From: Chryseobacterium phocaeense
Lineage (GTDB): Bacteria > Bacteroidota > Bacteroidia > Flavobacteriales > Weeksellaceae
Length of the DNA: 64,000 bases
Assembly (NCBI RefSeq): GCF_900169075.1
Contig: NZ_LT827015.1
Location: 2,992,158 to 3,056,157, forward strand
Reading direction: 5' to 3'
The position numbers and the translations under genes are program-made. Every line of letters starts with the position of its first letter. The first letter of the stretch is position 1. The notes under the pieces are model-generated. The model did no database searches. It saw only the letters and a list, made by a program, of their open reading frames with translations, and was not told the origin of the DNA. Below are positions 3,934-14,539 of the stretch, one piece after another.

Positions 3934-4803
3934 ATGGACACCAATTTCTCAGATGATTTCCTGATCAAAGGAAAATTTTCAATCAAAAAAGTATCAACCG
4001 AATATAAAGGAAAACTGACCAAAGAAGAAGGCGGGCAGTTGCTGGTGATGGAGAAAGAAAAACTCCGTGAACTACAGGAAAAGCTTTACGCAGACGGCAG
4101 CAAATCCCTGCTTGTGATTCTCCAGGCTATGGATGCTGCAGGAAAGGACAGCCTGATAGAGCATGTTTTCGGAGGGGTAAATCCGCAGGGCTGTAATGTG
4201 ACCAGCTTTAAAACACCCAGCTCCAGAGAATATTCCCATGATTTCCTGTGGAGGCATTATCTGGCTCTTCCCCAAAAAGGAATGATCGGGATTTTTAACA
4301 GGTCCCATTATGAAAGCGTTCTGGTGTGCAAAGTCCACCCTGAATATAACCTCAGCGAAAAAACATGGTCTTCTGTAGAGGATTTTGATGCTGAATTCTG
4401 GGAAAATCGATACGAAAGCATCAGGAATTTTGAAAAACATCTGGCACAGAACGGAACCACCATTGTGAAAATATTTCTCAATGTCTCAAAGGACGAGCAA
4501 AAGAAAAGATTACTGGACCGGATCAACGAGCAGGAGAAAAACTGGAAATTTTCAACCGGAGATCTTCCTGAGCGGGCATTATTCCCACAATATATGGAAG
4601 CGTACGAAACTGCCATCAATGAAACTTCAAAGGATCACGCTCCGTGGTACGTACTTCCGGCAGACAATAAATGGTTTGCAAGAGTAGCCGCTATACAGAT
4701 CATTATTGATACGCTTGAAAAGATGGATCTGAAATACCCACAACTGAGTGAAAAAGAGAGATCCGGGCTGGCAGAAGCTAAGAAAACACTTGAAAGTGAA
4801 TAA
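3934..4803 (+). CDS. ppk2: PPK2 family polyphosphate kinase
   Basis: A 289-residue cytoplasmic P-loop kinase that transfers phosphate between inorganic polyphosphate and nucleotides. The PPK2-type Walker A AMDAAGKDS is at residues 65-73 and the Walker B-like segment IGIFNRSHYE at 118-127. The lid region, rich in arginine and lysine, includes KKRLLDRINEQEKNWKFS. One-domain length fits PPK2 class I or III rather than the two-domain class II. Nucleotide preference cannot be told from sequence alone. It stands alone between the DUF1573 gene and the L/S array. Confidence 0.93.
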   Translation: MDTNFSDDFLIKGKFSIKKVSTEYKGKLTKEEGGQLLVMEKEKLRELQEKLYADGSKSLLVILQAMDAAGKDSLIEHVFGGVNPQGCNVTSFKTPSSREYSHDFLWRHYLALPQKGMIGIFNRSHYESVLVCKVHPEYNLSEKTWSSVEDFDAEFWENRYESIRNFEKHLAQNGTTIVKIFLNVSKDEQKKRLLDRINEQEKNWKFSTGDLPERALFPQYMEAYETAINETSKDHAPWYVLPADNKWFARVAAIQIIIDTLEKMDLKYPQLSEKERSGLAEAKKTLESE

Positions 4804-4885
4804 ATTTAAACGGTAAAATATTACACAATAGCTAAGTATAGATAAATAAATTTAACTTAAAAGACACCAAAATGTGAATAATTTA

Positions 4886-4915
4886 TTGTTCATATCATTT
4901 TTTTTTATACATTTA
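4886..4915 (+). promoter_or_regulatory. Promoter of the L/S array
   Basis: TTG at 4886-4888, a 19-base spacer and TACATTTA at 4908-4915 match the Bacteroidota sigma-A promoter (TTG-N19-TAnnTTTG) with one mismatch. It lies 41 bases before the first lipoprotein gene. It is the only convincing promoter seen for the whole 9-kb array. Confidence 0.65.
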
Positions 4916-4956: not shown

Positions 4957-5334
4957 ATGAAAAAACATTTATTATTATCAGCATTCGCTATAATAAGTAC
5001 TATTTCCTGCAACAGTGAAGGAACAGCCGTAAATACCGTACAAAGTATGAAAACTCCGCAAATGGAGAATTTCGACAAGGCTTTCAAAAGTCTGGGTGAT
5101 CCGCAGAACAGACCTACTGAGGAAGAAAAAAAGAGAAATACCTCTGAACTGAGTGACCGAAGAAAGGCACTTCTGGTTCCTGCATCTAAAGAACTGATCC
5201 TTTCTTCCGGCGTTACAGAAGCTGAACTCACCAGAAAAACCGGTGGTGACATGAGCCAGATCATTGTCTGGGCAACCCAGATTTACATGCAAAAGAGCGA
5301 CGAGATCCGTAAAAACTTAAAGTCTGATCAATAA
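4957..5334 (+). CDS. Array lipoprotein L1
   Basis: A 125-residue protein with a lipoprotein signal and lipobox ISC, acylation expected at Cys18. The mature part from about residue 31 is the invariant L domain: MKTPQMENFDKAFKSLGDP, then charged helix-like stretches (EEEKKRNTSEL, SDRRKALL), SKELIL, TEAELTRKTGGDMSQ and a C-terminal IVWATQIYMQKSDEI helix. No named domain was recognised. L1 departs from the others at VQS for VES and KNLKSDQ at the end. It is the first gene of the array and sits 3 bases before the first S gene, so the two are probably co-translated. Confidence 0.9.
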   Translation: MKKHLLLSAFAIISTISCNSEGTAVNTVQSMKTPQMENFDKAFKSLGDPQNRPTEEEKKRNTSELSDRRKALLVPASKELILSSGVTEAELTRKTGGDMSQIIVWATQIYMQKSDEIRKNLKSDQ

Positions 5335-5337
5335 ATC

Positions 5338-5886
5338 ATGAAAAAGTTTTTACTGCTTCTCGGCATATGCTCCGTTTCTACGGCGTATGCCCAGGGAGGA
5401 ACGCTGATTATTCAGAATTTCACCACGAACTATGATTTCCACGGATCTCTTTATGCCAACAATAATGTAGGTGGTGGATGTTACCCGATGGTTATTTCAA
5501 AAGTTCCCGACGAGATCATCGTGCCTGCGGGCGCTGCTGCCAAGTATGAAAATTACAGAGACCAGTTCTCTACCTCCGGTTATCCGGTTTCTACCTGGAA
5601 CGTTTATCTGGCAGCAGGCTCTGCCGCTTCACCAAGACCGTGGAGCCATCCCAGTTTAATCCCAGGCGGCGTTATTTCCAATAACACCAGATGGTCTATG
5701 TCCAAATATCAGATGTATCATGCCGGAACTTCTGTGCCGGAGACTTACTTCAACGGAGATATCGGAGAAACAGCTCTGCCATGCAATACAGCCCCTGATT
5801 TTGTAGACTCCCCACCTTACGGAAGCGCCAAATGGTTTACCATCACTTCCGGTACAGACGTCTATACTTATCTTGTTATCCAATAA
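5338..5886 (+). CDS. Array secreted protein S1a (subfamily A)
   Basis: A 182-residue protein with a Sec signal peptide ending at about AYAQ. Subfamily A hallmarks are a beta-like start (TLIIQNF, then YDFHGS), Cys48 in GGGCYP, a VPAG turn, NYRDQFSTSGYP, TRPWSHP-like PRPWSHP, PGGVISNNTRW, KYQMYHAGT, Cys149 in LPCNTAPDF, and the C-terminal signature KWFTIT..YTYLVIQ. The two cysteines are conserved in all A members and could form a disulfide. There is no T9SS sorting domain. Function is unknown. Confidence 0.88.
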   Translation: MKKFLLLLGICSVSTAYAQGGTLIIQNFTTNYDFHGSLYANNNVGGGCYPMVISKVPDEIIVPAGAAAKYENYRDQFSTSGYPVSTWNVYLAAGSAASPRPWSHPSLIPGGVISNNTRWSMSKYQMYHAGTSVPETYFNGDIGETALPCNTAPDFVDSPPYGSAKWFTITSGTDVYTYLVIQ

Positions 5887-5898
5887 ACTTATATTACT

Positions 5899-6429
5899 AT
5901 GAAAAAGATCTCATTACTTGTATCTGTCCTGGCAGGAGTACTCTCTTTTGCCCAGACATCCCCTTTGATTATACAAAACTATAATACTTTTGATGCCGTA
6001 GGAAGGCTGCGCACGGGTACGCCGGGAGGTGTTCCGGGACCTTATATGTTTGCAGCTCCCAACGCTCCCTACGGTACTTACACAGTTCCTGCGGGCGCTA
6101 TGACCCAATACAATACGTTCAGTACTTCGGGTACAGCGGCGCTTCCCATCACGATATGGTATGTGACAGACCCTACGAACCCAGCCAATAACGGAGGCTA
6201 TCCTTACAATGATCCTTTCATTTCGTCGGTAATGAACTCTTCCAATGTATGGGGTGGATTTCATTTCTGGCTGACAGATCCTTCCAGTGGGGTAACAGAT
6301 ACATATCAATTGGGAGACCCTACGATATATTCTGGGTTTACCACTACAGGAACGGGAACTTTTTCAAGTGCTGACTGGTTCACCATCACCACACCAAGCG
6401 GCCCAACCACTTACCTGCAGATTTTTTAA
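5899..6429 (+). CDS. Array secreted protein S1b (subfamily B)
   Basis: A 176-residue secreted protein whose signal peptide ends at about SFAQ. It belongs to subfamily B: LIIQNYNTFDAVGR, a proline/glycine-rich segment ending YMFAAPNAPYGTYTVPAG, WYVTDPTNPANNGGYPYN, then F-WLTD, GDP, and a C-terminal DWFTITTPS..TYLQIF. It has no cysteine in the mature part, unlike subfamily A, but the N-terminal and C-terminal signatures show that A and B are distant homologues. It follows S1a by 12 bases and is followed by a hairpin. Confidence 0.87.
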   Translation: MKKISLLVSVLAGVLSFAQTSPLIIQNYNTFDAVGRLRTGTPGGVPGPYMFAAPNAPYGTYTVPAGAMTQYNTFSTSGTAALPITIWYVTDPTNPANNGGYPYNDPFISSVMNSSNVWGGFHFWLTDPSSGVTDTYQLGDPTIYSGFTTTGTGTFSSADWFTITTPSGPTTYLQIF

Positions 6430-6437
6430 GAAGTAAC

Positions 6438-6467
6438 GGCAGCTGTTCTGCAGCTGCCTGTTTTATT
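6438..6467 (+). terminator. Internal terminator-like hairpin in the array
   Basis: A perfect 8-bp stem (GGCAGCTG and CAGCTGCC, loop TTCTG) is followed by TGTTTTATT, 9 bases after the S1b stop. It sits in the longest gap of the array (137 bases) and could stop or thin out transcription after the first module. No strong new promoter is seen between it and L2. Confidence 0.65.
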
Positions 6468-6566
6468 GTACTTCATGAATACGGAAAGCAACCATTTTGC
6501 TTTTCCAGGATTTGTGATGCCTGAATGTAAAATTTTATTTAAACCTAATTCCAACATAATTTACTC

Positions 6567-6944
6567 ATGAAAAAACTGATTTTATCGGCTGTAATCGCCG
6601 TGGTAACGCTTGTATCGTGCAACAATGAGAATGCTGCCACCCATACCGTGGAAAGTATGAAAACCCCTCAAATGGAAAATTTTGACAAGGCTTTCAAAAG
6701 TCTGGGAGATCCACAGAACAGACCTACCGAAGAGGAAAGAAAAAGAAACACTTCAGAACTAAGTGACCGAAGAAAGGCGCTCCTTGTTCCTGCTTCCAAA
6801 GAACTCATCCTTTCTACAGGCGTAACCGAAGCTGAGCTGACCAGAAAAACTGGTGGTGATATGAGCCAGATCATCGTTTGGGCTACCCAGATCTATATGC
6901 AAAAGAGTGATGAAATCCGCAGAAATATTAAATCTGACCAATAG
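6567..6944 (+). CDS. Array lipoprotein L2
   Basis: A 125-residue paralogue of L1 with lipobox VSC and predicted acylation at Cys18. The signal peptide and the first dozen mature residues (CNNENAATHT) differ from the other copies, while from MKTPQMENFD onward the sequence is nearly fixed. Compared with L1 the domain carries EEERKRNT and an IRRNIKSDQ end. Many codons differ silently from the other copies, so the duplication is not recent. The stop is 2 bases before the next S gene. Function unknown. Confidence 0.9.
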   Translation: MKKLILSAVIAVVTLVSCNNENAATHTVESMKTPQMENFDKAFKSLGDPQNRPTEEERKRNTSELSDRRKALLVPASKELILSTGVTEAELTRKTGGDMSQIIVWATQIYMQKSDEIRRNIKSDQ

Positions 6945-6946
6945 AT

Positions 6947-7450
6947 ATGAAAAAGTTTTTAACTATTATCGGACTTTTGTTTATTTCATCTGCATTCGCG
7001 CAGGGAGGACCTCTTGTCATCAACAATTTTACGGCTTATGATTTTCATACCAGAATAACCGCAGCCAATCTTGCTACACCAGGCTGCTATTTTTATGTAA
7101 CCCTGGAAAATCCTGAGCTCGTCATTCCGGGCAATACCAATGCAAGCTACAATAGCTACAATATTCCGGGGACTTTCTGGAAAGTATCGTTATCCCCTAC
7201 CAATGCAACTACCAGAGCCGGAAGTCATGCAAGTCTTGCTTTGAACGGCGTAATTTCCGTGAATACAAAATGGGTGGTTTCTGAGTTCCAGTTTCATCAG
7301 TCGGGAACACCTATGTCCTCCGGAGCTGTAGGAGATACCTCTTACACATGTAATCCTGTCCCGAATACTTATTTCGCTCCGGAAGCTACTGTAGAATGGT
7401 TTACCATCACCAGCGGAGGAACCTCCTATACTTATCTGCAGGTTCTGTAA
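6947..7450 (+). CDS. Array secreted protein S2 (subfamily A, divergent)
   Basis: The shortest S protein at 167 residues, with a signal peptide ending at about SAFAQ. It keeps the A framework: LVINNFTAYDF, Cys47 in PGCYF, NGVISVNTKW, EFQFHQSGT, Cys135 in YTCNP, and the EWFTITSGG..YTYLQVL end. The NYRDQF-SSLYP block is replaced by a shorter NSYNIPGTFW segment, a clear loop deletion relative to other members. Tight 2-base spacing after L2 suggests coupled translation. Function unknown. Confidence 0.87.
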   Translation: MKKFLTIIGLLFISSAFAQGGPLVINNFTAYDFHTRITAANLATPGCYFYVTLENPELVIPGNTNASYNSYNIPGTFWKVSLSPTNATTRAGSHASLALNGVISVNTKWVVSEFQFHQSGTPMSSGAVGDTSYTCNPVPNTYFAPEATVEWFTITSGGTSYTYLQVL

Positions 7451-7502
7451 TGACCATATATAATTCAATTTTAAAATTTAAAACTAACATCCAATTCCTA
7501 TT

Positions 7503-7880
7503 ATGAAAAAACTTTTTTTATCGGCCGCTTTTGCTGCTTTAACCCTGATTTCATGTAATAATGAAAGTTCTGCCGTGAATACGGTGGAAAGTATGAAAAC
7601 GCCTCAGATGGAAAACTTTGACAAGGCATTTAAAAGTCTTGGCGATCCACAAAACAGGCCAACTGAAGAGGAAAGAAAAAGAAATACTTCCGAACTGAGT
7701 GACCGAAGAAAAGCACTGCTGGTTCCTGCTTCTAAAGAGCTGATCCTTTCCACTGGTGTAACTGAAGCTGAACTGACCAGAAAAACCGGCGGAGACATGA
7801 GCCAGATCATCGTATGGGCCACCCAGATCTATATGCAGAAAAGCGACGAGATCCGTAAAAATATTAAGTCAGATAAATAA
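7503..7880 (+). CDS. Array lipoprotein L3
   Basis: A 125-residue L paralogue with lipobox ISC at Cys18 and early mature residues CNNESSAVNT. The invariant domain is the majority form (VESMKTPQMENFD, EEERKRNTSEL, ILSTGVTEAEL, IRKNIKSDK). It heads the only module whose single S partner is of subfamily B, 26 bases downstream, so the same L protein pairs by position with both S subfamilies. Confidence 0.9.
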   Translation: MKKLFLSAAFAALTLISCNNESSAVNTVESMKTPQMENFDKAFKSLGDPQNRPTEEERKRNTSELSDRRKALLVPASKELILSTGVTEAELTRKTGGDMSQIIVWATQIYMQKSDEIRKNIKSDK

Positions 7881-7906
7881 ACACTAAACATTAAATCCAT
7901 TATGCT

Positions 7907-8452
7907 ATGAAAAAATTAACTGTTATTCTCGGGATAATAGCCGGAACCGCTATTTCCGCTCAATCTTCCTCACTGGTTATCAACAACTACAGCGCTTATG
8001 ATGCAGAGGGCAGATTTATGACCGTGGGGTCAATGGGCCTGGGATCATCCCAGCCGTATATGTATGCTCTTCCTAATCCTCCTTACTCCGTATATACCAT
8101 TCCTGCGGGAGGCTTTACCAAGTATGATAAATTTGACAATACAGGAATTCCAAATCCTATTCCGATTCCGGGATGGAATTATATTGATCCTTTAAACAGC
8201 GCCAATAACGGAAATTATCCCTACAATCATCCTATGATTACGGCAGTGACCGCTATTGATGAGTGGATGGGATTTGCCTTCAGACTTACCGATTCTACAG
8301 GATACACGTATGATACTTTTGAGGTTGGGGATCCGATTCTCTCCGGCGGCTTCTTAAGTTCTACCCAAACCGGTCCCAATACTCTGGTGACTGCAGACTG
8401 GTTCACCATCACCACACCGGGAGGACAGGTGACTTATTTCCAGATTTACTAA
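7907..8452 (+). CDS. Array secreted protein S3 (subfamily B)
   Basis: A 181-residue secreted protein with a signal peptide ending at about AISAQ. Subfamily B signatures are LVINNYSAYDAEGRFMT, YMYALPNPPYSVYTIPAGG, a proline-rich turn (NPIPIPGW), DPLNSANNGNYPYN, F-FRLTD, GDP, and a C-terminal DWFTITTPG..TYFQIY. No cysteine is present in the mature chain. It resembles S1b and S10 more than any A protein. It is 42 bases upstream of L4. Confidence 0.87.
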   Translation: MKKLTVILGIIAGTAISAQSSSLVINNYSAYDAEGRFMTVGSMGLGSSQPYMYALPNPPYSVYTIPAGGFTKYDKFDNTGIPNPIPIPGWNYIDPLNSANNGNYPYNHPMITAVTAIDEWMGFAFRLTDSTGYTYDTFEVGDPILSGGFLSSTQTGPNTLVTADWFTITTPGGQVTYFQIY

Positions 8453-8494
8453 ATCTTCAAATCCATTTAAAATTTAACACTATACGATTTAATT

Positions 8495-8872
8495 ATGAAA
8501 AAACATGTATTACTAACCGCTTTTGCCATTCTAAGTCTGGTTTCATGCAGCAACGAAAATGCCGCAGTCAATACGGTGGAAAGTATGAAAACCCCACAGA
8601 TGGAAAATTTCGATAAAGCGTTTAAAAGTCTTGGTGATCCGCAAAACAGGCCTACGGAAGAGGAAAGAAAAAGGAACACTTCCGAGCTGAGCGACAGAAG
8701 AAAAGCACTTCTGGTTCCTGCTTCTAAAGAATTGATCCTTTCTACCGGCGTTACCGAAGCTGAACTGACCAGAAAAACCGGCGGAGATATGAGCCAGATC
8801 ATTGTCTGGGCTACGCAGATCTACATGCATAAAAGCGATGAGATCCGTAAAAACATTAAATCCGATAAATAA
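8495..8872 (+). CDS. Array lipoprotein L4
   Basis: A 125-residue L paralogue with lipobox VSC and acylation expected at Cys18. The early mature region is CSNENAAVNT. Its only change in the conserved domain is YMHKSDEI in place of YMQKSDEI. It sits 8 bases before its S partner. As in the other copies, third codon positions vary freely while the amino acids do not. Confidence 0.9.
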   Translation: MKKHVLLTAFAILSLVSCSNENAAVNTVESMKTPQMENFDKAFKSLGDPQNRPTEEERKRNTSELSDRRKALLVPASKELILSTGVTEAELTRKTGGDMSQIIVWATQIYMHKSDEIRKNIKSDK

Positions 8873-8880
8873 TTACTGCT

Positions 8881-9447
8881 ATGAAAAAAATACTATCCCT
8901 GCTGGGACTGGCCGCTTTTTCTTTTGGGTTTTCCCAGGGAGGAACGCTTATCGTGAACAATTATACCCCTTATGATTATTACGGAGCACTCATCGCCAAT
9001 AATTTTGCGGGAGGATGCTACCCCATTGTTACTCCAACAACTCCGGGCAGTATGGTTACTGTTCCTGCCAATTCCAATATGGGGACCGGCACTGAGCTGA
9101 GGTATGACAATTACAGGGATCAGTTTACTTCATCACTATATCCGGTAACGCAATGGCAGGTCATGCTTTCTGCTACCAACGGACAGCCAAGATTGTGGAG
9201 CCACCCTGCTATAATGCCCGGTTCAGTGGTCGCCAATAATACAAAATGGGGATCTACCAAGTTTGAAATGCGTATTGCAGGGACCACGACCAATGCTCCC
9301 GATAATTTTCACGCCAATTTAAGTGTGATTGGAAATCCATGTAATACTGCTCCTGACTTTTTTAGTACGCCTTCGGGAAGTAACAGCGCCGAAATGTTCT
9401 CCCTGACCAGTGGAGGAATTGTATATACCTATATTCAACTTTATTAA
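8881..9447 (+). CDS. Array secreted protein S4 (subfamily A)
   Basis: A 188-residue secreted protein and the most typical subfamily A member. The signal peptide ends at about FSQ, followed by GGTLIVNNYTPYDYYG. Cys46 lies in GGCYP, then VPANSNMGTG, YDNYRDQFTSSLYP, RLWSHPA, VVANNTKW, KFEMRIAGT, Cys154 in NPCNTAPDF, and SAEMFSLTSGG with the YTYIQLY end. Predicted mostly beta. The aromatic last residue is shared by nearly all S proteins. Function unknown. Confidence 0.88.
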   Translation: MKKILSLLGLAAFSFGFSQGGTLIVNNYTPYDYYGALIANNFAGGCYPIVTPTTPGSMVTVPANSNMGTGTELRYDNYRDQFTSSLYPVTQWQVMLSATNGQPRLWSHPAIMPGSVVANNTKWGSTKFEMRIAGTTTNAPDNFHANLSVIGNPCNTAPDFFSTPSGSNSAEMFSLTSGGIVYTYIQLY

Positions 9448-9459
9448 TCCTGCTTCATT

Positions 9460-9831
9460 ATGAAAAAATATTTTTTATCGGCTGCCATAGCTGTTTTAAC
9501 ATTAGCATCATGCAACAATGAAGGTTCTGCCGTGAATACGGTGGAAAGCATGAAGACTCCACAGATGGAGAATTTCGACAAAGCTTTTAAAAGTCTTGGT
9601 GATCCCCAGAACAGACCTACCGAAGAGGAGAAAAAGAGAAATACTTCTGAACTGAGTGACAGGAGAAAAGCCCTTCTGGTTCCTGCTTCCAAAGAGCTGA
9701 TCCTTTCCACAGGCGTAACTGAAGCTGAACTGACCAGAAAGACAGGTGGTGATATGAGCCAGATCATCGTGTGGGCCACGCAGATCTATATGCAGAAAAG
9801 TGAAGAAATCCGTAAAAACATTAAATCTTAA
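9460..9831 (+). CDS. Array lipoprotein L5
   Basis: The shortest L copy, 123 residues: it ends ...KNIKS and lacks the last two residues of the others. The lipobox is ASC at Cys18 and the early mature region CNNEGSAVNT. It has EEEKKRNT like L1, and KSEEIRKN where others have KSDEIRKN. It heads the largest module, with three downstream S genes of subfamily A, the middle one frameshifted. Confidence 0.9.
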   Translation: MKKYFLSAAIAVLTLASCNNEGSAVNTVESMKTPQMENFDKAFKSLGDPQNRPTEEEKKRNTSELSDRRKALLVPASKELILSTGVTEAELTRKTGGDMSQIIVWATQIYMQKSEEIRKNIKS

Positions 9832-9843
9832 AATATAATCAAC

Positions 9844-10410
9844 ATGAAAAAAGTATTAACATTACTGGGCCTTGCAGCCTTTTGCTTCGGATATTCCCAG
9901 GGAGGAACCCTTATTCTGAATAACTATTCCCAATATGATTTTTCAGGATTTATTATTGCCAACAATATGGCGGGAGGATGCTATCCGTATATAAGCTCCA
10001 ACAATCCGGAAATGGTAAAGGTCCCTGCCAATTCCCACCAGGGCAACGGACTGGAGCTGAAATATACCAATTACAGGGATCAATATACTTCTTCTTTGTA
10101 TCCGATGACCCAGTGGCACGTCAGTACATCCTCTGCTCCCGGCATAACAAGATTGTGGAATCATCCTTCTATGATGCCGGGCGGAGTTTTTTCAAACAAT
10201 ACCAAATGGGCTACTACAAAATTTGTGATGTATTATCCGGGAACGACCAATCTTGCTCCTGATAATTTCAATGGCGCCATCACACTTGCAGGGAATTCCA
10301 ACTGCTACACTGCCTCTGACAATATGATGAGCTCTACCGGAAACAACAGCGCAGAAATTTTCACGCTGAGCAGCGGAGGAACTGTTTTCACGTACATCCA
10401 ACTCTACTAA
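9844..10410 (+). CDS. Array secreted protein S5 (subfamily A)
   Basis: A 188-residue secreted protein, alignable end to end with S4. After a signal peptide ending at about GYSQ come GGTLILNNYSQYDFSG, Cys46 in GGCYP, VPANSHQGNG, YTNYRDQYTSSLYP, RLWNHPS, PGGVFSNNTKW, KFVMYYPGT, Cys154 in NSNCYTASD, NNSAEIFTLSSGG and YIQLY. Differences from S4 are scattered rather than clustered, mainly in predicted loops. It is 12 bases from both neighbours. Confidence 0.88.
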   Translation: MKKVLTLLGLAAFCFGYSQGGTLILNNYSQYDFSGFIIANNMAGGCYPYISSNNPEMVKVPANSHQGNGLELKYTNYRDQYTSSLYPMTQWHVSTSSAPGITRLWNHPSMMPGGVFSNNTKWATTKFVMYYPGTTNLAPDNFNGAITLAGNSNCYTASDNMMSSTGNNSAEIFTLSSGGTVFTYIQLY

Positions 10411-10422
10411 TATGATTTAATT

Positions 10423-10952
10423 ATGAAAAAAATCTTAGCGATACTGGGAACAGCAGGGGCGTCTTTGGTATATTCACAGGGGACCATCATTGTGAATAAT
10501 TATTCGAAATTTGATTATTACGGATTTTTAATAGCAACCAATTCTACCTCCGGCTGCTACCCCCGTGTAGGAAATGACGGCGCAATTGTGGTTCCTGCAG
10601 AATCTCGCTTGAACTTGTATACAAGGACTATATGGGCCAATTCTCTTCTTCCCTGTATCCTACTGCGAACTGGGTAGTCACACTAAACCCTACATCATCT
10701 TCAATCATGGCGTGGAATAATGTGAACCTTTCACCGGGCGGCACCATTGCAACCACCACAAAATGGTATGCCACGAAGTTTGATATGATGGACGCAGGAA
10801 CAACAAATTCAAACACTGAAAATTTCCGGGTCAATATGAATATCGCCAACGCCTGTGGTACCGGTATCAATGACTATTTCGTTACTCCTTCAGGAAACAA
10901 CAGTGCGGAAATGTTTACTATTTCCGGCATTATATACCTGCAGCTTTACTAA
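10423..10952 (+). pseudogene. Array secreted protein S6 (subfamily A), frameshifted
   Basis: The first frame (from 10423) gives a normal signal peptide and A-type start (TIIVNNYSKFDYYG, Cys in SGCYP, VPAES). It then leaves the family alignment and stops at 10677. The second half continues in another frame, where LELVYKDYMGQFSSSLYP, PGGTIATTTKW, KFDMMDAGT, NACGTGINDYF, NNSAEMFTI and YLQLY match the other A proteins. The shift falls near 10600-10612, at the loop where relatives carry NMGTG-type residues. No slippery heptamer or homopolymer is seen there, so a real disruption or a base-call error is likelier than programmed frameshifting. Confidence 0.85.
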
Positions 10953-10978
10953 TCTTCAATCACTTTAATACTAAAAAC

Positions 10979-11536
10979 ATGAAAAAAATACTAACTATCA
11001 TTTCACTCGCATTATTTTCATCAGCATTCTCCCAGAGCAGCCTGATGATTGTCAATAATTATTCCACAACGTTTGATTTTAAGGGAAATATAAGCGCCCA
11101 TAATTTTGCAGGCGGCTGTACTCCCTTTGTAACCTCCAGCACACCCACAGCTATTACTGTGCCTGCCGACTCACATACAGGGAACGGGCACGAGCTCGCT
11201 TATAAGAATTTCAGAGATCAGTTTACAGGATCACTGTATCCTACAACCAACTGGACCGTGCAGCTGAGCCCGACTGTTTCTCAGATCCGGGCCTGGAATC
11301 ATGTAAGCATAGCACCCGGCGGTGTGATCTCGTCCAATGTGAAGTGGGCATCCTCTCAGTTTCAGATGTATTATACGGGAACCTCCACACCGGAACCGTC
11401 TTTCAGCGGTCTGATTGGCGAACCTGCTGATCCGTGCACGGGTGCCAATTCCTATATTTCCACATCCTACGGAGATGCCGAATGGTTTAATATCACCACA
11501 GGGAATGTGGATTATTCTTATTTGCAAATTTATTAG
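10979..11536 (+). CDS. Array secreted protein S7 (subfamily A)
   Basis: A 185-residue secreted protein, signal peptide ending at about AFSQ. The A framework is complete: LMIVNNYSTTFDFKG, Cys47 in GGCTP, VPADSHTGNG, YKNFRDQFTGSLYP, WNHVS, PGGVISSNVKW, QFQMYYTGT, Cys153 in DPCTG, and AEWFNITTG with a YSYLQIY end. Its AEWF end is closer to subfamily B than the AEMF end of S4 and S5. It follows the frameshifted S6 by 26 bases. Confidence 0.88.
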   Translation: MKKILTIISLALFSSAFSQSSLMIVNNYSTTFDFKGNISAHNFAGGCTPFVTSSTPTAITVPADSHTGNGHELAYKNFRDQFTGSLYPTTNWTVQLSPTVSQIRAWNHVSIAPGGVISSNVKWASSQFQMYYTGTSTPEPSFSGLIGEPADPCTGANSYISTSYGDAEWFNITTGNVDYSYLQIY

Positions 11537-11563
11537 TCAAATCCAACCTAAATTAAATTAATC

Positions 11564-11941
11564 ATGAAAAAACTAATTATACCGACATTATTTGCTGCTT
11601 TAACTTTAGTATCCTGTAACAACGAGAGTGCTGCTGTGAACACAGTGGAAAGTATGAAAACCCCTCAAATGGAAAACTTTGACAAGGCATTCAAAAGTCT
11701 TGGAGACCCGCAGAACAGACCTACTGAAGAAGAAAGAAAAAGAAATACTTCTGAACTGAGCGACAGAAGAAAAACGCTTCTGGTTCCTGCTTCCAAAGAA
11801 CTGATCCTTTCCACAGGCGTTACTGAAGCTGAACTGACCAGAAAAACAGGCGGCGATATGAGTCAGATCATTGTTTGGGCTACCCAGATCTATATGCAAA
11901 AAAGTGACGAAATCCGTAAGAACATAAAATCTGACAAGTAA
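11564..11941 (+). CDS. Array lipoprotein L6
   Basis: A 125-residue L paralogue with lipobox VSC (Cys18) and early mature region CNNESAAVNT. The conserved domain has one change, DRRKTLLVP for DRRKALLVP. Its stop lies 3 bases before the next S gene. Function unknown; an anchored envelope location is inferred from the lipobox. Confidence 0.9.
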   Translation: MKKLIIPTLFAALTLVSCNNESAAVNTVESMKTPQMENFDKAFKSLGDPQNRPTEEERKRNTSELSDRRKTLLVPASKELILSTGVTEAELTRKTGGDMSQIIVWATQIYMQKSDEIRKNIKSDK

Positions 11942-11944
11942 GGT

Positions 11945-12496
11945 ATGAAAAAGATTCTGTCACTACTAGGTTTTGCAGCCTCCATAGCTGCTTATGCACA
12001 GGGAGTTCTTGTGATCAACAATTATACACCCTATGATTTCAGAGGCGATGTGATTGCACACAATATGTTTGCGCCCTGCTACCCAAGGGTTGTAAACAAT
12101 GTTCCTATTATAGTTCCCGCCAATTCCAATACGGGAACGGGAACTCAACTTCAGTATGATAATTTCAGAGACCAGTTTACTTCTTCTCTGTATCCGATGG
12201 CTGCATGGAGTGTTGCAACATCGCCAAACTCAACCAATGTAAGACCTTGGGATCATCCTGCTTTGGTGCCGGGAGGCACATTTGCAAACAATACCAAATG
12301 GGGGATCACTAAATTCGGGATGGTATACGCAGGAACCAGTACCGGCGTAGTTGGTTTTGGCGGTAATATAGCGATAGCAGGAAACCCATGTTATACATAT
12401 CCTGATTATTACACCACTTCAAGCGGACTGAACAGCGGGGAGATGTTCAGCATCACCAGCGGAGGTACTGTAACGACCTATATTCAGCTTTATTAA
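11945..12496 (+). CDS. Array secreted protein S8 (subfamily A)
   Basis: A 183-residue secreted protein with signal peptide ending at about AYAQ. Features: VLVINNYTPYDFRGD, Cys45 in APCYP, VPANSNTGTG, YDNFRDQFTSSLYP, RPWDHPA, PGGTFANNTKW, KFGMVYAGT, a glycine-rich GFGGN, Cys149 in NPCYTYPDYY, NSGEMFSITSGG and TYIQLY. It keeps every A landmark and differs mainly in loops. It sits between L6 (3 bases) and L7 (25 bases). Confidence 0.88.
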   Translation: MKKILSLLGFAASIAAYAQGVLVINNYTPYDFRGDVIAHNMFAPCYPRVVNNVPIIVPANSNTGTGTQLQYDNFRDQFTSSLYPMAAWSVATSPNSTNVRPWDHPALVPGGTFANNTKWGITKFGMVYAGTSTGVVGFGGNIAIAGNPCYTYPDYYTTSSGLNSGEMFSITSGGTVTTYIQLY

Positions 12497-12521
12497 TCAG
12501 GAAAATTAAATCTAATTACTT

Positions 12522-12899
12522 ATGAAAAATCTTTTTTTAACGGCAGCTTTTGCCTCTCTGACCCTGATTTCATGTAACAATGAAGGAAGTGCTGTCAATA
12601 CTGTGGAAAGTATGAAAACCCCTCAGATGGAAAATTTTGATAAAGCTTTCAAAAGTTTGGGAGATCCGCAAAACCGGCCTACTGAAGAGGAAAGAAAGAG
12701 AAATAGTTCTGAACTGAGTGACAGAAGGAAAGCGCTTCTGGTTCCTGCTTCCAAAGAGCTTATTCTTTCTTCGGGGGTGACTGAAGCCGAACTGACCAGA
12801 AAAACCGGTGGTGATATGAGCCAGATCATTGTTTGGGCTACCCAGATTTATATGCAGAAAAGCGATGAGATCCGTAAGAATATCAAATCTGAAAAATAA
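12522..12899 (+). CDS. Array lipoprotein L7
   Basis: The last L copy, 125 residues, starting MKNLFL rather than MKK. The lipobox is ISC at Cys18 and the early mature region CNNEGSAVNT. Changes in the fixed domain are RNSSEL for RNTSEL, ILSSGV for ILSTGV, and an IKSEK end. It heads a module with one A and one B gene, like L1, so the array begins and ends with the same arrangement. Confidence 0.9.
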   Translation: MKNLFLTAAFASLTLISCNNEGSAVNTVESMKTPQMENFDKAFKSLGDPQNRPTEEERKRNSSELSDRRKALLVPASKELILSSGVTEAELTRKTGGDMSQIIVWATQIYMQKSDEIRKNIKSEK

Positions 12900-12902
12900 A
12901 TC

Positions 12903-13457
12903 ATGAAAAAGATCCTAACCGTATTGGGAATAACGGCAGCTTCGTTCGTTTATTCTCAGGGGATGTTTATGCTTAACAATTATTCCCCTCATGATTATTA
13001 TGGAAACCTTATGGCCATGAATCTTAGCGGCTGTGTTCCTGCGGTCATCAATAATGACCCGGCTATCATTATAGTTCCAGCCAATTCACATATGGGAAAC
13101 AGTCTTGCCTTGAAGATCGATAATTACAGAGACCAGTTCACCAATTCCCTCTATCCGATTACCAGCTGGCGTGTCACCCTTGGGCCATCACCTTCAACAG
13201 TAAGACTGTGGAACAATCCCAGCCTTATGCCGGGTGGGGTAATTGCCAACAATACCAAGTGGGTGACCTCTAAGTTTTCCATGTATTATGCAGGAACAGG
13301 TAACCAGGTGACCGGCTTCAACACCAACCTGGGAGATGCTACTCCGAATACATGTGTAACGAGTATTGACTATTTTTCTACCCCGAACGGTTCGGCAGAA
13401 TGGTTTACCATTTCATCAGGTACAACAACAACAACTTATCTTCAAATTTACCCATGA
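12903..13457 (+). CDS. Array secreted protein S9 (subfamily A)
   Basis: A 184-residue secreted protein, signal peptide ending at about VYSQ. Features: MFMLNNYSPHDYYGN, Cys44 in SGCVP, VPANSHMGNS, DNYRDQFTNSLYP, RLWNNPS, PGGVIANNTKW, KFSMYYAGT, Cys151 in NTCVTSIDYF, and SAEWFTISSG with a TYLQIYP end. Its TGA stop overlaps the next start in the ATGA arrangement (13454-13457), so translation of S9 and S10 is probably coupled. Confidence 0.88.
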   Translation: MKKILTVLGITAASFVYSQGMFMLNNYSPHDYYGNLMAMNLSGCVPAVINNDPAIIIVPANSHMGNSLALKIDNYRDQFTNSLYPITSWRVTLGPSPSTVRLWNNPSLMPGGVIANNTKWVTSKFSMYYAGTGNQVTGFNTNLGDATPNTCVTSIDYFSTPNGSAEWFTISSGTTTTTYLQIYP

Positions 13458-14011
13458 AAAAAACAGCAGCTTTATTACTGGGCTTAGCAGGAATACTTTC
13501 TTCTGCACAGACGTCTTCCTTTGTATTTAATAACTACAATGTTTACGATGCAGTGGGGAGATTTATGACCTGCAGCCCTACTCCGGGAATGGTTAAGTAT
13601 ATGTACGCTTCCCCAAACGGAACTTATGGGACCTATACCATGCCGGCGGGGATTTCTTCCTCTTATTCATCTTTTGGAACTACGGGCCTTGCCCCATTCC
13701 CAATGAATGTGATGCAGTGGTATGTAACCGACCCGTCCAATACAGCAAATAACGCATCCTACCCTTACAACCATAATTTTATAACATCTACCATGTCTGC
13801 CATCAATGAATGGGCATCATTCCATTTTGTGCTTCGTGACAGTGCTGGAAATGGTATTGATTCTTATCTTGTAGGAGACCCGGCTGTTGCCATTAATGCA
13901 GGTGTTACAGCAAATGCCTACCAGATAGGGGCTAACAGCGGTATAGAAGCCGAGTGGTTTACCATTACCACAGCTTCCGGAAAGATTACGTATTTCAGTA
14001 TTTATCCATAG
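13454..14011 (+). CDS. Array secreted protein S10 (subfamily B)
   Basis: A 185-residue secreted protein. The ATG at 13454, inside the stop of S9, gives a clean signal peptide (MKKTAALLLGLAGILSSAQ). Subfamily B signatures follow: FVFNNYNVYDAVGRFMT, YMYASPNGTYGTYTMPAG, WYVTDPSNTANNASYPYN, FHFVLRD, GDP, and EWFTITTAS..TYFSIYP. There is one cysteine (MTCSP), so no A-type disulfide. It is the last gene of the array and ends 5 bases before a strong terminator. Confidence 0.88.
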   Translation: MKKTAALLLGLAGILSSAQTSSFVFNNYNVYDAVGRFMTCSPTPGMVKYMYASPNGTYGTYTMPAGISSSYSSFGTTGLAPFPMNVMQWYVTDPSNTANNASYPYNHNFITSTMSAINEWASFHFVLRDSAGNGIDSYLVGDPAVAINAGVTANAYQIGANSGIEAEWFTITTASGKITYFSIYP

Positions 14012-14015
14012 AAAA

Positions 14016-14047
14016 AAGCGGAGATCAGTCTCCGCTTCTTTATTTTA
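14016..14047 (+). terminator. Terminator of the L/S array
   Basis: A perfect 9-bp stem (AAGCGGAGA and TCTCCGCTT around TCAG) is followed by CTTCTTTATTTT, just after the S10 stop codon. Together with the promoter at 4886 it delimits the array as a transcription unit. Confidence 0.88.
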
Positions 14048-14069
14048 AAGCTTTATGTGTCCATAAAAA

Positions 14070-14398
14070 TCACGAGAAAATCTGTAAGCCGGATTTTGTG
14101 CTTCCGAAGAAGTGCCTGTTATTTATCTGCGTCTTACATTGCTGCAAAACTTGAGCTGATTACCCCTCGGCTTTCAGGACGAGCCGCCCCTATTTTCATT
14201 ACTGAAAAGAACCGATATACTTATCATTGCACCGCAAAGAGTTTACCTGGTTTCACTACAGCCGAACTGTACCTGCTTTCTGTTGCACTTGTCCTACCCT
14301 CACGGGTGACGGATGTTATCCGCTTTGCTGCTCTATGGTGTCCGGACTTTCCTACCCCTGCCGAAACAGGAATCAACAAGCCGATTTTCTCGCGGTGG
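14070..14398 (-). ncRNA. rnpB: RNase P RNA (bacterial type A)
   Basis: On the minus strand, starting near 14398, the transcript shows the conserved RNase P signatures in order: AGGAAAGTCCGGAC, GTGCAACAGAAAGCAGG, CCAGGTAAACTC and the terminal AAATCCGGCTTACAG. The two ends pair through GAGAAAATC at 14383-14391 (5' side) and its complement at 14074-14082 (3' side), forming the closing helix. This is the catalytic RNA that trims pre-tRNA 5' leaders. Ends are approximate. Open frames crossing this stretch are not genes. Confidence 0.95.
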
Positions 14399-14420
14399 CA
14401 AAGATACGTAAATTTTAGAG

Positions 14421-14539
14421 AGGCAAAATAGCGAAAGGGCAAAGAATGCTAAGGAAGATGAGAAGGCAAATAAGCTAATTTGTCCATTTGCTGTTTATCT
14501 TTCGCTGTTTTGCCTTTTTGCCCTTTCGCTATTTTGCCT
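14421..14539. repeat. 23-bp inverted repeat between rnpB and the sigma gene
   Basis: A 23-base word beginning AGGCAAAATAGCGAAAGG at 14421-14443 recurs as its exact reverse complement at 14517-14539. A third, weaker copy (TTTCGCTGTTTTGCC) lies at about 14500-14514. The 70-base interior has no gene. It could fold as a long hairpin upstream of the sigma-factor promoter. Confidence 0.75.

Follow-up and report, generated by a model that had tools for sequence, protein, structure and literature searches.

The L–S array of Chryseobacterium phocaeense

The window discussed here, that is, the whole analysed stretch of 64,000 nt from Chryseobacterium phocaeense (assembly GCF_900169075.1, contig NZ_LT827015.1, positions 2,992,158 to 3,056,157 of the forward strand), contains a tandem array of about 9 kb (4957-14011). 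In this array, seven genes for a small lipoprotein, L, alternate with eleven genes for secreted proteins, S, of two types, A and B. The gene order is L-A-B, L-A, L-B, L-A, L-A-A-A, L-A, L-A-B, which bears out the alternation described in an earlier note made from the sequence alone; all starts in the open reading frame (ORF) listing lie on the plus strand. In other words, each module consists of one L gene followed by one to three differing S genes. The intergenic gaps measure 2-52 nt, with two exceptions: the first trio is followed by 137 nt, and one pair of genes overlaps by 4 nt. The genes of the array are as follows.

4957..5334, +, L1 lipoprotein (ORF and alignments; lipobox Cys18, Glu at +4)
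5338..5886, +, S, A type, orthogroup L1S1
5899..6429, +, S, B type, orthogroup L1S2
6567..6944, +, L2 lipoprotein
6947..7450, +, S, A type
7503..7880, +, L3 lipoprotein
7907..8452, +, S, B type
8495..8872, +, L4 lipoprotein, the query of the L searches
8881..9447, +, S, A type, the copy used for structure prediction
9460..9831, +, L5 lipoprotein
9844..10410, +, S, A type
10423..10952, +, S, A type, with a frameshift that splits it into overlapping ORFs of 84 and 106 aa
10979..11536, +, S, A type
11564..11941, +, L6 lipoprotein
11945..12496, +, S, A type
12522..12899, +, L7 lipoprotein
12903..13457, +, S, A type
13454..14011, +, S, B type (likely start 13454)

By its position, the frameshifted copy would belong to an orthogroup of which 12 other arrays have an intact member. 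For the last S gene, a start at 13400 was set aside; 13454, which gives the 4-nt overlap with the preceding gene, is the most likely one.

The pairing of L and S is kept across species. Among 296 genomes sampled from the family, with presence counted at E 1e-8 or better, L was found in 60, S in 61 and both in 58, so that the two occur together nearly always, as had been proposed. Weaker L matches, at E 1e-3 to 1e-5, were attributed to the signal peptide and left uncounted, and the searches scored 14 (L) and 11 (S) candidates per genome, which makes the copy numbers lower bounds. Both genomes with L and no S at this threshold hold traces of the latter, namely a weak adjacent S in G078 and remnants of both genes in G288. 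At the level of single genes, S directly follows L in 104 of 106 cases at 27 named loci, all from Chryseobacterium (median gap 9 nt; one locus, L076, gave no complete L or S), and in 34 of 35 cases in 22 further stretches that include the window (median gap 6 nt). An intact S without L occurs in G238 (L111:6346-6867), in opposite orientation to the large genes around it, and the two proteins flanking it carry CHU_C type IX tails.

The predicted spread across Flavobacteriia was not confirmed. In a class sample of 345 genomes, S occurred in the window's own genome and in one other of its genus, and just three short N-terminal matches appeared beyond that genus, with ten candidates scored per genome. 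A search of one window L against 72,556 plasmids gave no match, and L was not found in viral contigs; of the marks of a mobile element, neither carriage by plasmids or viruses (searched with L) nor a variable site was observed.

Thirteen stretches from 13 genomes share the array site between PPK2-like and sigma-factor genes, the smallest with 1 L + 1 S and the largest with 8 L + 12 S, and the L–S set appears to have grown in place there. Other L–S pairs lie at further chromosomal sites and in other genera, for instance between genes that we take to be clpC and mnmA, and near presumed malate dehydrogenase and heme oxygenase genes. The latter site carries L–S in the window's own genome as well (L029).

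Constancy of L and conserved types of S

L had been described as nearly identical in every copy. This holds for the protein core (residues 31-123), with 97.1% identity over the 21 pairs of the window's seven L, but not for the DNA (79-85% identity) or the signal peptides (just 56.6%). Invariant columns make up 85 of the 93 in the core, 65 of them encoded by more than one codon, and the codons for a shared residue differ in 39% of cases across the 21 pairs. The ratio of nonsynonymous to synonymous substitution rates (dN/dS) of the core is 0.003-0.019, at a median dS of 1.31 (0.90-2.01), where values above 1 are near saturation. Recent gene conversion or fresh duplication was rejected as the source of the identical window copies, given a dS of at least 0.90 in every pair. 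Constraint of this kind, over the core of every copy, would fit seven L proteins that all contact one common partner or a common part of S.

Within genomes, L cores are 95.8% identical at a dS of 1.00 (medians over the arrays analysed, L070 apart), and first-position L across genomes are 91.6% identical at a dS of 1.11. On the DNA tree built from 18 arrays, 35 of 102 L and 13 of 161 S have their nearest relative within their own genome, which suggests that L evolves partly as a set and S much less so. The L copies of L056, L063, L066 and L070 cluster by genome, pointing to partial homogenisation there. Pfam matches of L to Rota_NS26 (3 of 23 members, best 4.9e-7) were put down to presumably fortuitous resemblance to a viral protein; LPAM_1 and DUF7292 match one member each and are uninformative on function; and a PDB sequence search gave just three weak matches, the best at E 0.65.

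The A and B types of S form a single family, as profiles seeded from either one reach 98 ORFs, the same in each listed stretch; four of the 98 are false matches via the signal peptide. A first S profile (alignment A2), which two beta-barrel outer-membrane proteins had entered via their signal peptides, was superseded by a clean one (A4). The strong differences between S partners that had been remarked upon are real: window A types are mutually 36-61% identical (frameshifted copy aside) and B types 49-50%. Sorted by position and type, the 161 S give eleven orthogroups, each present in 7-17 of 18 arrays, and the ten intact window copies belong to ten different orthogroups. One further group spans five genomes. 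Some S are confined to a single array (L063, L070), and the S of these two arrays cluster partly by genome.

Within orthogroups, median identity is 68-87% and median dN/dS 0.070-0.165, calculated with the L063 and L070 rows and second copies per genome dropped. These values indicate purifying selection on each S type, averaged over the gene, and argue against both antigenic variation and an arms race of toxins. The view of S as fast-diversifying partners is thus not supported, most types being kept by position.

S shows the marks of general export. Gln19 is present in all 104 S rows, and a cleavage site of the A-x-A^Q type in 135 of 167 S. The proteins thus appear to be Sec-exported and to obey the Bacteroidetes Q-rule for export through Sec and signal peptidase I, set out in passages of PMC5837995 and PMC10653852. 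In line with the earlier note, none of 30 scanned S members matched a sorting domain of the type IX secretion system (T9SS) in Pfam at E 0.01. One homolog, P0136, which was not scanned individually, bears the source label 'T9SS C-terminal target domain'. The possibility that S is a well-known family was also checked: no match above the family cut-off was obtained in Pfam or NCBIfam, and none in PDB sequence searches. PADLOC and PHROGs gave no noteworthy match for S or L, and no paper on a constant-L/variable-S arrangement was among the matches listed in the literature searches.

The location of L can be approached through its lipobox. Counted from the lipobox Cys, position +4 is Glu in all 164 recognised L, and the remaining N-terminus varies; the background comparison for this residue held just 6 other lipoproteins. 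The regular expression used missed 11 of 175 L (two overlapping sets). Among six unrecognised L that were printed, five have Glu at +4 and one (L078:7397) has Asp, as does the distant L117. According to passages of PMC5080379, the surface lipoprotein export signal (LES) comprises at least two acidic residues just after the lipobox Cys, with a positive or polar residue before them. Positions +2 to +6 hold one acidic residue in 163 of the 164 recognised L and two in one, so that 163 copies fall short of the minimal signal. L is therefore unlikely to act as the surface anchor once suggested, at least in the manner usual for Bacteroidota, and most likely lies at the periplasmic face of the outer membrane.

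The predicted structure provides a first hint about S. The model of the 8881..9447 copy (predicted local distance difference test score 89.6, predicted template modelling score 0.83) has aegerolysins as 7 of its 9 best PDB entries, with four distinct proteins among them: ostreolysin A, pleurotolysin A, Cry34Ab1 and RahU. Below them in the structure list stand Nakanori, actinoporins, fungal lectins and TDH; the folds of the last three are akin. S is thus predicted to be a beta-sandwich of aegerolysin/actinoporin-like shape. At the sequence level, the aegerolysin family PF06355 was matched by none of 30 S members at E 0.01 and by nothing in the window's own genome at E 1, and an hhalign comparison of profile A5 with a two-sequence Bacteroidia aegerolysin profile gave a probability of 0.2 over 4 columns. 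A genuine aegerolysin was seen in G100 (L151:1489-1893, minus strand, PF06355 E 9.9e-40), a genome of the window's genus that yielded neither L nor S.

Flanking signals and the third gene P

The array lies between a conserved left neighbour and a gene for RNase P RNA, and several candidate signals accompany it.

3934..4803, +, left neighbour gene, presumably PPK2-like; the same left gene in 13 of 13 stretches at the site
4875..4892, +, near-perfect palindrome TGAATAATTTATTGTTCA, candidate operator upstream of the first L
6438..6458, +, intrinsic terminator following the opening L-A-B trio, shared by 16 of 18 arrays
6483..6506, +, second hairpin, also between the first trio and L2 (GGAAAGC...GCTTTCC), from the consensus fold of 16 aligned arrays
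14016..14037, +, intrinsic terminator closing the array
14069..14392, -, RNase P RNA (rnpB), right neighbour converging on the array (RF00010, 198 bits)

The palindrome lies within a conserved stretch upstream of the first L, and its 16-base core, AATAATTTATTGTTCA, is unchanged in 10 of 18 aligned array rows. The 18-mer occurs in a single exact copy in the genome, and sites with 2 or 3 mismatches number 45, compared with 10 for a backwards control. The two hairpins after the first trio each show a few pair-keeping changes across the 16 arrays. The terminator in this gap makes the proposed single transcription unit doubtful. Together, the terminator hairpins and the conserved upstream palindrome suggest that the first L-A-B trio is probably expressed in larger amount than the rest of the array.

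RNase P RNA was checked as a neighbour in the window, where it is the sole match of the Rfam scan, with no other match in the array. The mechanical ORFs over rnpB (e.g., 14057-14431, plus strand) are probably not genes.

A third gene, P, of about 600 codons, follows S or an S remnant in G033, G070, G072 (broken), G078, G097 and G288, and adjoins L–S at the clpC site in G028 and G286. Its product combines weak similarity to SBBP-type propellers with a T9SS type A tail. TIGR04183 was above the cut-off in 3 of 3 scanned P, and PF18962, in six scanned P, was above it in three, below it in two and missing in one broken piece. By this C-terminal sorting domain, P would be a T9SS substrate, and its occurrence beside L–S in some genomes suggests a function at the envelope or surface.

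Strong P matches (E < 1e-40) occur in 54 of 296 genomes, of which 20 also have L (Fisher p 0.0013, uncorrected for shared descent). The seven top-scoring matches all adjoin L–S or its remnants, though six of them built the profile and G286 alone is independent. P often stands alone, without L–S; the window's genome has none at E 1e-12; and G104 and G081, which like G238 depart from the joint occurrence of L and S, contain a partial S and a broken P. Two further arrangements were observed. In G295 (L140) the order is L, P, L, S, P, apparently a duplicated three-part module. In L130 (G034:C19:310772-316142), three tandem P lie beside a ClpC-like gene, without L–S there, at a site where other genomes hold L–S.

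Interpretation and relation to known systems

The reading that we prefer, with a probability of about 0.4, is that L acts as an unvarying lipoprotein partner to a conserved set of secreted S proteins, which probably bind membranes or glycolipids. The array would then be a stack of two-part modules. L, a small outer-membrane lipoprotein most likely facing the periplasm, would serve as one constant docking, folding or holding factor, and each Sec-exported beta-sandwich S type may bind membranes or glycolipids with a target of its own. The position of the L gene just upstream of its S genes would allow both to be made together. The roughly ten S types may have arisen by in-place duplication of one L–S module and then been kept type by type across species. 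G070 and G097, in which L has an in-frame stop and S is intact, count against a strict need for L in this scheme. A wider version is more tentative: a new envelope system in which a single receptor, chaperone or exporter, the invariant L, serves a fixed set of secreted beta-sandwich binders coded by position. Each binder would recognise its own membrane lipid or glycan, and the propeller protein exported by the T9SS would be an ancestral third component. As for the interpretation in the earlier note, the co-occurrence of L and S and the lack of a known family stand, and the breadth across Flavobacteriia, the surface anchor and the fast diversification of S are not supported.

Surface display, a reading put forward in that note, takes L as an outside lipid anchor and S as adhesins or coat proteins held by it. 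Its strengths are the lipoprotein nature of L, the export signal of S, the propeller-type protein with a T9SS tail beside L–S in several genomes, and the distant L117 of G078, which after processing starts C-A-E-D-D and is nearer an export signal. We consider it rather unlikely, as the minimal export signal is missing in nearly all recognised L, S has no T9SS tail, and the passage of S over the outer membrane would need an explanation of its own. A lectin repertoire, in which S would bind own-surface, plant or fungal glycans for nutrition or colonisation and L would help to hold them, is an option that we regard as quite improbable; in the structure comparison, aegerolysins outscore lectins.

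The fold resembles that of membrane-binding toxins in the model, and the L gene sits tightly beside S, so S could be cytolysin-like effectors that damage the membranes of other cells, with L as the immunity lipoprotein. Immunity proteins, however, normally vary with their toxin, and here the immunity candidate is the constant part. Moreover, the S types are conserved by position without an arms-race pattern, and the PADLOC and PHROGs results offer nothing in favour, although no search was aimed at a pore-forming partner gene. This explanation has a poor chance in our view. The least probable is an ordinary tandem expansion of two envelope genes for dosage, with no need for L–S contact. The range of 1 to 8 L copies at one site and the partial homogenisation of L would suit it, but the pairing is maintained elsewhere on the chromosome and in further genera, the S copies are split into kept types rather than being alike, and L without S is confined to the two genomes with a weak S or remnants.

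One partner fixed by very strong selection and the other split into about ten types, the majority of which are conserved between species, represent a clean natural experiment. If L and S bind each other, the array would illustrate how a secreted binding repertoire can be widened without changing the machinery that handles it. Additionally, two families without a Pfam or NCBIfam match above the cut-off are linked, in some relatives, to type IX secretion.

Among known systems, the aegerolysins (PF06355; OlyA, PlyA, RahU, Cry34Ab1) are closest to S in predicted shape, without sequence similarity and with no profile similarity seen against the two-sequence profile. In contrast to them, S has a Sec signal peptide, is somewhat longer, has a lipoprotein gene as its neighbour and occurs in up to 12 copies per array. 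Actinoporins, fungal fruit-body lectins and TDH are also membrane- or sugar-binding beta-sandwiches, but stand lower in the same list (Z 4.2-5.2) and have no sequence match to S. The P proteins beside L–S are of the kind of SBBP-type beta-propeller proteins with a T9SS type A sorting domain. Polymorphic toxin–immunity loci, a subject of PMC3482391, likewise consist of neighbouring genes with a secreted variable protein. No known toxin domain was matched in L–S, and the constant and variable roles are reversed. Tandem lipoprotein paralogs are likewise familiar from the staphylococcal lpl and mycoplasma variable lipoproteins; in those families it is the lipoprotein that varies, whereas in the L–S array the lipoprotein is invariant.

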